Position numbers and translations under genes: made by a program. DNA of 55,626 nucleotides, from the NCBI GenBank assembly GCA_003695675.1, contig RFIA01000026.1, positions 1 through 55,626 on the forward strand, read 5' to 3'. This DNA comes from Chloroflexota bacterium. Lineage in GTDB: Bacteria; Chloroflexota; Anaerolineae; Aggregatilineales; Phototrophicaceae. This document shows, piece after piece, positions 185 through 3,237 of the stretch (positions are counted from its first letter, which is position 1; each line of letters begins with the position of its first letter). The notes under the pieces are model-generated. The model made no database searches. It was not told the DNA's origin and saw only the letters and a program-made list of their open reading frames with translations.

Positions 185-213
185 TTGACCACGCATCAAT
201 GCGGTCGTACAAT
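185..213 (+). promoter_or_regulatory. Sigma-70-type promoter with palindrome in the spacer
   Basis: TTGACC (185-190) and TACAAT (208-213) are separated by exactly 17 bases, each matching five of six consensus positions. The spacer holds the inverted repeat CGCAT-CA-ATGCG (192-203), placed where a repressor would block RNA polymerase. The promoter leads into the small membrane gene at 262 and then tetR and the exporter, so autoregulation by the TetR protein is a reasonable inference. Confidence 0.6.
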
Positions 214-261: not shown

Positions 262-630
262 ATGAACGATCAGACAATTTGTTATTGGAATATCGGCGTT
301 GTTGAGCGGCGCAAGCGATTGCAATTTGGCATTATCAGTTTTGTGATTGGCATCGTCGTCGGTGTCGTATTGATCGCACTTGACGTATCGAATCTGTGGC
401 GGTTGCTTTTGTTCTTGCCATTTGTCGGTGGTGGCATCGGCTATTTTCAAGCGCATGAGAAGACCTGAGTCAATCTCGCACAGCGCGGTCTGCGCAACTT
501 AGACAATGGCACAGAAACGATTGAAGATCAACTGATTGCCGCACAATTACGCAAACAGGCACGCAAAGTCTATCTTGAAGCAAGCGCCGTCGCTGTCGTC
601 ATGACAATTGTTTTTGTCGCGCTGCCATGA
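262..630 (+). pseudogene. Small two-segment membrane protein gene with in-frame TGA
   Basis: An ATG at 262 (a TTG precedes it at 259) opens a frame encoding a short N-terminus, two hydrophobic segments (about residues 24-40 and 46-60) and FQAHEKT, then meets TGA at 466-468. The same frame continues without a stop for another 53 codons to TGA 628-630. That part encodes a plausible cytoplasmic stretch (VNLAQRGLRN...) and a third hydrophobic segment near the end. Composition is the same on both sides of the TGA, so it looks like one gene of about 122 codons with one codon turned to TGA. From memory, related small proteins carry Cys at this position (KTCV), so TGA could be a TGC/TGT mutation, a sequencing error or, less likely, selenocysteine. 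A strong promoter lies upstream. Its function is unknown. Confidence 0.55.
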
Positions 631-1338: not shown

Positions 1339-3237
1339 ATGAATCAACCACACACATGGGATCATTTGCCGGGATATGCAACCCGTTGGACGGGGCTGAT
1401 TTTCATCGGCATCTCGTTGATTGTCATCAGCCTCGACAATACGATTCTAAATGTTGCGATACCCTCGATTTCACGCGATCTTGGCGCGACGGCGAGTGAA
1501 TTGCAATGGATTGTCGATGCCTACATTTTGATATTCGCGTCGCTGTTGTTGACACTCGGCGCCATCGGCGACCGTTTCGGGCGCAAGCGCCTGTTAAAAA
1601 TCGGCCTTGTGTGGTTCGGCATCGGCTCACTCGCCGCAGCGTTGGCGCCATCGACCGAAGCCCTCATCGCAGCACGCGCCTTTCTTGGCATCGGCGGCGC
1701 GATGATTATGCCGTCTACGCTCTCAATCATCAGCGCGACTTTCCCACCGATGGAACGCCCGAAAGCGATTGCGATTTGGGCGGCGATTTTCGGACTCGGT
1801 GTTGGCATCGGCCCGGTGGTCGGCGGCGCACTGCTGACTCAATTCGAGTGGAATTCGGTCTTCTTGGTCAATCTACCGGTCGTGTCGATTGCGCTTTATG
1901 GTGTGACGAAATATCTCGGCGAATCAAAAGATGACAATGCGCCGCGAGTCGACTTTCCCGGCGTTGTGTTGTCGATTATCGGCTTGTTCGCGTTGATCTT
2001 CGCCATCATCGAAGCCGGTGTCAAAGGTTGGACGGACACGCAAGTGTTGATCGCATTCGGCGTCGCAGCGGTCTTGCTGACGTTATTCGCCATTTGGGAA
2101 GCGAAAAACCCGGACGCGATGTTGCCGCTCCACTTCTTCAAGAATATGTCCTTCACCGGCGCGAATCTCGCGCTGGCGATGGTCATCTTCAGCTTGTTCG
2201 GCGTCGTCTTCTTCCTCAATCAATACACACAATCGGTGCTCGGTTACAGCCCACTCGAAGCCGGGTTGATCTCGTTCCCACTGGCGCTTGTGTTGGCGAT
2301 TACGGCCTCGAACTCGGCGCGGTTGGCGGCGTGGCTCGGCACAAAGATCACGGTCGCGTTGGGCATTGCTATCGCGGCGACGAGTCTGTTGTTGATGTCG
2401 CTCATCTTCGATGTGACGACGAGCATCGTGACGATCATCTTGATCGAGACGATCTTGGCAGCCGGTATGGGCATCGCCATGAGTCCGGCGACGAACTCGA
2501 TTATGGGGTCTGTCCCGGTGCGCAAAGCGGGGATTGGCTCTGCAATGAACGATACCAATCGGCAGCTTGGCGGTGCGCTCGGCGTCGCGATTCTCGGCAC
2601 GATTATGAACAACGCTTATATCGACGGCCTCGCCGGTCTGCCGCAAGCGTTGCCGCAAATCCCGGCGGAGGTGTTGGCCGGTGTGTCGAACAGTATTCAA
2701 GCTGCGCACATCATCGTACAAAATCCGCAAATACCGGAAGCCGCACGCAATATTATTGTGTCGATGGCGGATGCCGCTTTCGTCGATGGCATGACGCAAG
2801 CGATGCTCATCGGCGCGTTCATCATGTATGGCGCGGTGTTGTTTGTGTTGGCCGTCTTACCGGCACAGGTGCGGCGTCCACAAGAAGACCTCGAACGCGA
2901 AAGCCGCCTAGCAGCACAGCCGGCGCCTGCATCGCCTCGATTGCGCCCGGTGACACAGCCGGTGCGCCTCGTCAATGGCAACACGGTGGACGCAATCGAA
3001 ATCATGACGGTGATGCGTGATGTCAAGACAGGTGCCTATGTCGTGCAGCTCGGCGAACAAGCCTACGATGGGCTGGCAGATATACCGCGCACAAAGCAAG
3101 ACTTCATGCGAGTCTTGCGCGGCGTCGCCAAAATTGTCGAGCGCGACTCCGGTGTGCAGCAGGCTGCGCAATCCGAAAATGGCAGTGTGCAACCCTTGCC
3201 GTCTTCACCCCGCGAAGCACCCGCAATTGGGGATTAG
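1339..3237 (+). CDS. DHA2-type MFS drug exporter with C-terminal soluble tail
   Basis: This is a 632-residue major facilitator transporter of the 14-helix DHA2 (EmrB/QacA) type, which exports hydrophobic drugs in exchange for protons. Diagnostic motifs are LDNTILNVAIP in helix 1, GAIGDRFGRKRL (motif A) after helix 2, and GLGVGIGPVVGGALL (motif C) in helix 5. Membrane segments continue to about residue 515. The last 115 residues are not transporter: a Pro/Ala-rich linker is followed by a small domain containing VNGNTVDAIEIMTVMRD, a GAYVVQLGEQAYDGLADI-like stretch and a final helix, then a disordered end. ATG 1339 has GAGGAGG upstream. Context with TetR suggests induction by an exported compound; the substrate is unknown. 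A terminator follows at 3263. Confidence 0.9.
   Translation: MNQPHTWDHLPGYATRWTGLIFIGISLIVISLDNTILNVAIPSISRDLGATASELQWIVDAYILIFASLLLTLGAIGDRFGRKRLLKIGLVWFGIGSLAAALAPSTEALIAARAFLGIGGAMIMPSTLSIISATFPPMERPKAIAIWAAIFGLGVGIGPVVGGALLTQFEWNSVFLVNLPVVSIALYGVTKYLGESKDDNAPRVDFPGVVLSIIGLFALIFAIIEAGVKGWTDTQVLIAFGVAAVLLTLFAIWEAKNPDAMLPLHFFKNMSFTGANLALAMVIFSLFGVVFFLNQYTQSVLGYSPLEAGLISFPLALVLAITASNSARLAAWLGTKITVALGIAIAATSLLLMSLIFDVTTSIVTIILIETILAAGMGIAMSPATNSIMGSVPVRKAGIGSAMNDTNRQLGGALGVAILGTIMNNAYIDGLAGLPQALPQIPAEVLAGVSNSIQAAHIIVQNPQIPEAARNIIVSMADAAFVDGMTQAMLIGAFIMYGAVLFVLAVLPAQVRRPQEDLERESRLAAQPAPASPRLRPVTQPVRLVNGNTVDAIEIMTVMRDVKTGAYVVQLGEQAYDGLADIPRTKQDFMRVLRGVAKIVERDSGVQQAAQSENGSVQPLPSSPREAPAIGD

Follow-up and report, generated by a model that had tools for sequence, protein, structure and literature searches.

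An in-frame TGA very probably read as selenocysteine in a small, apparently undescribed membrane protein family of Chloroflexota

MerT-type mercuric transport proteins have a three-helix topology. Some members of this family (PF02411) contain selenocysteine (Sec), according to the accessible part of a 2026 account of 119 prokaryotic selenoprotein families (PMC13188914). The same text describes bacterial SECIS (bSECIS) elements by a loop of 3–9 nt that has G within its first two positions, a stem of 4–16 bp, a spacing of 16–37 nt, and an energy of at most −7.5 kcal/mol (PMC13188914). Here, we describe a gene from a Chloroflexota bacterium that resembles SECIS-dependent bacterial selenoproteins in its UGA, in a hairpin with a G-containing loop 18 nt downstream, and in the presence of selA, selB, tRNA-Sec, and selD. 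Like the MerT-type selenoproteins, its predicted product is a small membrane protein.

The gene occupies positions 262–630 on the forward strand of the window, by which we mean the entire 55,626-nt stretch analyzed, and the window starts 261 bases ahead of it. The host is represented by a draft genome of 4.7 Mb that is 92% complete. A preliminary description, made from the sequence alone, had reported a frame open on both sides of a TGA at 466–468 and preceded by a strong promoter. Reading from ATG 262 confirms the former, as the frame is open up to TGA 466–468 and onward to a final TGA at 628–630 (forward strand). The predicted protein has 122 residues, with Cys7 (codon 280–282, forward strand) as the N-terminal Cys that comparison of homologues identifies as conserved, and with TGA 466–468 (forward strand) as Sec69. 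The open frame past the TGA was considered as evidence and rejected: the window, read in all frames, has 154 ORFs that reach 60 aa or more and end in TGA, and in 33 of these another 53 or more codons stay open. The gene rises above chance because of the conservation of the TGA column described below, not because of openness. As for the promoter, a consensus scan located a sigma-70-like site, TTGACC-17-TACAAT, at 185–213 (forward strand) with 10 of 12 consensus matches, but two such sites were observed in positions 1–1400 on both strands against 1.0 expected, and the site offers weak support. A TetR-type gene (661–1233) and then an MFS-type gene (1339–3237) lie downstream.

A search of 400 genomes sampled evenly across the phylum returned 40 matches, nine of which have a single internal TGA. 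When aligned at 466–468, the matches carry TGA (9), TGC (27), or TGT (4), and no other codon. One of the four TGT matches (L057, from genome G158) was rejected as a chance match within a histidine-kinase-like protein. A first contig scan gave no relatives; a later scan with a closer alignment (A3) gave 18 loci, comprising 16 with TGA, one with TGT (L067), and one with TGC (L075), a ratio biased by a query that was itself derived from TGA forms. Seventeen of these relatives belong to Chloroflexi or Anaerolineales-type bins and one to Gemmatimonadaceae. Extending the search to 396 genomes of the class produced 26 matches, 12 with TGA, of which five were new (G433, G587, G622, G645, and G666). 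A short match in G470 was not recognized, and L102, in which the family pattern was not recognized, was left out of the class set. Each TGA form carries a single internal TGA; for G587 a second one is listed, most likely the end of the gene. Pooled without duplicates (L059, L061, L066, and L070, which equal G297, G332, G018, and G392), the searches place TGA at this column in 26 assemblies, including L065, which was kept although its post-TGA stretch equals that of L066. The 14 whole genomes among the 26 are spread over seven families. The class search listed 20 other genomes from the window's own family, and the gene was present in none of them; its confinement to one listed genome may reflect loss or horizontal transfer.

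Positions 483–495 (forward strand) form a candidate bSECIS hairpin composed of GCGC (483–486), the loop GGTCT (487–491), and GCGC (492–495). The hairpin starts 14 nt past the TGA and its loop 18 nt past it, and the arrangement of TGA, 18 nt, and GGTCTGC is identical to that in Escherichia coli fdhF. Its geometry agrees with the bSECIS description (stem of 4, loop GGUCU, spacing of 18). The folding energy is −8.4 kcal/mol for the 42 nt from the UGA, a second small hairpin included, and −5.0 kcal/mol for the 13-nt hairpin alone. We scored homologues for a hairpin with a stem of 4 bp or more, a loop start 18–19 nt past the TGA, and G within the first two positions of the loop; such a hairpin was found in 26/26 TGA forms versus 14/39 Cys forms.

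We then resampled synonymous codons with weights set by third-position GC, leaving out L056 and L057. The hairpin reached p < 0.05 in 22/26 TGA forms compared with 4/39 Cys forms, and the combined p values, from sequences that are related, were 1.8e-23 and 0.73, respectively. Across 14 lineages chosen by eye, p combined to 2e-14, and for the window alone p was about 0.01. An earlier version of this control, on the first 39 sequences (L057 dropped), had given combined p values of 3.6e-8 for TGA and 0.92 for Cys forms. Taken individually, the TGA forms L022, L025, L071, and L072 fall short of p 0.05. The resampling led us to reject, for the TGA set, the idea that the hairpin is a by-product of conserved R-G-x-R codons.

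Compensatory changes were assessed in 20 TGA forms, those left of the 26 once L065 and the five new class-search forms were set aside, using shuffles that ignore relatedness. Five of the seven pairs have changed on both sides, with pair 21–27 being C-G in ten forms and U-A in ten. Double-change cells numbered 20, where shuffles gave 8.7; the covariation score was 0.38 versus 0.23, with 0 of 500 shuffles as high in either case. On two of the five measures, namely the number of pairs changed on both sides (129/500 as high) and the number of pair types (476/500), the shuffles were not exceeded. Across the 20 forms, pairing at the two outermost positions is mostly absent, and sliding the register by −2 still leaves 73.6% of cells paired versus 79.3% in the proposed register. 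By plain minimum free energy (MFE), the window's stretch is not below its shuffles (z −0.31), and none of five stretches folded, fdhF (z −1.41) included, went past z −1.5; L074 folds otherwise by MFE. The preliminary description had noticed the GCGC/GCGC hairpin with its five-base loop, placed its start about 16 bases after the TGA, and called it too weak to claim a SECIS. The hairpin is present, with its start corrected to 14 nt, and the verdict on its strength stands for the ordinary plain energy but not for the fdhF-like spacing and loop, the 26/26 occurrence, the synonymous-codon control, or the covariation. Three Cys forms (L029, L033, and L092) also carry a hairpin beyond the synonymous control (p 0.005–0.023); the genomes of L029 and L033 have no selA match, and that of L092 has selA. 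Our guess would be that these hairpins are relics of a Sec codon, that is, fossil SECIS elements.

The host genome encodes selA (549 bits), selB (380 bits), tRNA-Sec (71 bits; tca anticodon by ARAGORN), and selD, all on contigs other than the window's. In our first set, selA scored over the cut-off in 9/9 TGA genomes versus 15/31 Cys genomes (G158 included), and in the second set in 3/5 versus 6/8. Across the 14 TGA whole genomes, 12 have selA over the cut-off, 12 have tRNA-Sec, and 13 have at least one. No selA match was obtained in G433 and G645 and no tRNA-Sec match in G645 and G666; G645, in which neither was matched, is 78% complete. Twelve of the 17 Cys genomes scanned also have tRNA-Sec over the cut-off, and the matches in G037, G262, and G349, at 49–52 bits in genomes that lack selA, may represent other tRNAs. 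The machinery accompanies TGA forms, yet many Cys forms coexist with it. In the single-contig relatives G005 and G112, the TGA gene, selA, and tRNA-Sec are all on contig C1, so a binning error is no explanation in these two. The host selD has one in-frame TGA of its own (L058:1528–1530), where the DNA reads CAGUAS, and host SelD is therefore a predicted selenoprotein too. The host formate dehydrogenase over the model cut-off has no internal stop; the 122-aa protein and SelD may thus be what maintains the Sec machinery.

These data bear directly on how TGA 466–468 is to be read. The preliminary description had placed Cys here in related proteins, suggested aligning homologues and looking for selA, selB, and selC, and offered a fresh mutation, an assembly error, or a recoded codon as options. 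Its statement on Cys is borne out by the Cys codons of 31/40 matches, every codon in the aligned column is either TGA or one for Cys, all three genes are in the genome along with selD, and recoding is by far the best of the options. TGA is one base off TGC and TGT, the codons of those 31 matches, as would fit a Cys codon altered by nonsense mutation, in a pseudogene, or by an assembly error. However, TGA occupies the same column in 26 assemblies, whose 14 whole genomes span seven families, and this refutes both a fresh mutation and an assembly error. The sequence past the TGA also has a low dN/dS: about 0.14 for the pair L024/L025 (dN 0.07, dS 0.49), compared with 0.12 before the TGA (dN 0.09, dS 0.74), and 0.12 for L021/L022 (dN 0.15, dS 1.30), for which dS before the TGA is saturated. 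In two more distant pairs, dS is at or near saturation. The post-TGA sequence is thus under purifying selection in the two close pairs tested, and we consider a lesion of this kind barely credible.

The same pairs weigh against a genuine stop that would yield a 68-aa product and leave the remainder as a regulatory tail. Such a product would retain the two helices ahead of the TGA, and the ordinary plain MFE is compatible with this view; against it, the protein continues past this point in the Cys homologues, and R78, E85, and A100, all past the TGA, are invariant in the 13 rows of alignment A2, making a functional stop exceedingly improbable. Some tRNAs insert a different residue at UGA, and the column is otherwise Cys, so decoding as Cys, Trp, or another residue through a suppressor tRNA or a code change deserves slightly more weight. 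Yet each gene has only one internal TGA, and TGA is also the final stop in three of the first nine TGA forms, the window's included. The presence of selA, selB, tRNA-Sec, and selD and a hairpin control that separates TGA from Cys forms likewise argue for Sec, and non-Sec decoding is very unlikely. We conclude, from comparative sequence evidence, that the gene at 262–630 very probably encodes a selenoprotein in which TGA 466–468 is read as Sec, with the column, the machinery, and the hairpin each supporting recoding. In the proposed mechanism, the UGA would be decoded by SelB and Sec-tRNA-Sec, with the hairpin at 483–495 directing insertion.

The window protein passed no Pfam or NCBIfam cut-off. 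With 28 of the 40 matches as input, the best E values were 0.00057 (NCBIfam) and 0.00067 (Pfam, among the best 25 of 30 families), each for one member. Among those best 25 of 30 Pfam families, the YgaP-like TM domain (PF11127, DUF2892) matched 4/28 members weakly (best E 0.027) and not the window protein at E up to 1, and PF02411 was absent at E up to 1. Profile comparison of a wide alignment with 14 YgaP-like TM domains taken from relatives gave 68.8% probability (E 4.5e-5), and the same comparison with the narrower alignment A6 gave 16.3%; controls with two other membrane families, represented by four-sequence alignments only, gave 0.4–0.6%. The motif N-x-G-x-x-E/D-R-x-x-R aligns with PF11127, whose conserved Cys falls at the Cys/Sec column, whereas the window protein is longer, has three helices instead of two, and lacks the rhodanese domain. 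Among the 119 families in Table 1 of PMC13188914, none fits by name, domain, or motif, and the hypothetical proteins of that table that have NCBIfam models (for example GOS_B, DG, and DF) are absent among the 22 families listed for the 28 members. The open-access literature yielded nothing on such a family. Judged by these lists and descriptions, this looks like an undescribed membrane selenoprotein family, which would extend the known selenoproteins by a small integral-membrane family. Because annotation pipelines normally take the TGA of such a gene as its end, the family is probably truncated in public annotations.

An AlphaFold2 model built from 18 sequences (mean pLDDT 88.6, pTM 0.77) confidently predicts a three-helix fold, with helices at residues 13–39, 44–66, and 90–120 and Sec69 directly past the second. 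A PDB sequence search up to E 1 gave no match, and a fold search gave no useful one (Foldseek best E 2.3, best Z 5.9). A Cys lies 1–3 residues ahead of the N-I motif in 63/64 homologues; 24/25 Sec forms have it at −3, and 37/39 Cys forms have it at −1 or −2. Because RRKR precedes helix 1, the positive-inside rule suggests that the N-terminus and Sec face the cytoplasm; at the inner membrane face, Cys7 and Sec69 could then act as a redox pair. Handling of electrophiles, quinones, or sulfane sulfur by the 122-aa protein is conceivable, and this is the least certain step of the proposal, one we advance only tentatively. Equally doubtful as a whole is the joint reading of an unrecognized membrane selenoprotein class distantly derived from the YgaP-like TM domain, in which Sec, where helix 2 ends on the cytoplasmic side, would form a membrane-bound redox pair with the N-terminal Cys, with a role in quinone, catechol, or electrophile defense, repeated exchange between Sec and Cys, and fossil SECIS elements in some Cys lineages.

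Neighboring genes were surveyed at 28 distinct loci (21 Sec and 7 Cys) with flanks of 1.5 to 4 kb. One protein cluster occurs beside 11/28 loci, all 11 of them Sec forms, and its scanned member contains two glyoxalase/dioxygenase-superfamily stretches. No member was found in the first 6 kb of the window, which begins 261 bases 5' of the gene. Some loci have DoxX, luciferase-domain, LUD, F420H2-dependent quinone reductase, or DsbA-like genes. CatD is DoxX-like. Bacillus subtilis catDE, which the accessible part of the source links to catechol stress under a quinone-sensing regulator (PMC6212828), offers a loose parallel to these genes. The shared neighbors are suggestive only, a lead towards function.

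A tree of 64 homologues (25 Sec and 39 Cys; 124 columns) omitted L057, L065, and L056, the last because its end departs from the family, perhaps through a frame error. The tree implies at least three changes between Sec and Cys, two of them forced by supported branches; many forks are weakly resolved, and the direction is unpolarized. The Anaerolineales isolate TGS_CHL6 has TGT (L067:4199–4201) and no hairpin, and adjoins the TGA form L095. Such close Sec and Cys forms offer a natural experiment on the reason for using Sec. The Cys member from the Gemmatimonadaceae bin (L075:1760–2095), which is without the N-terminal Cys, groups weakly with L023, a Chloroflexota Sec form.
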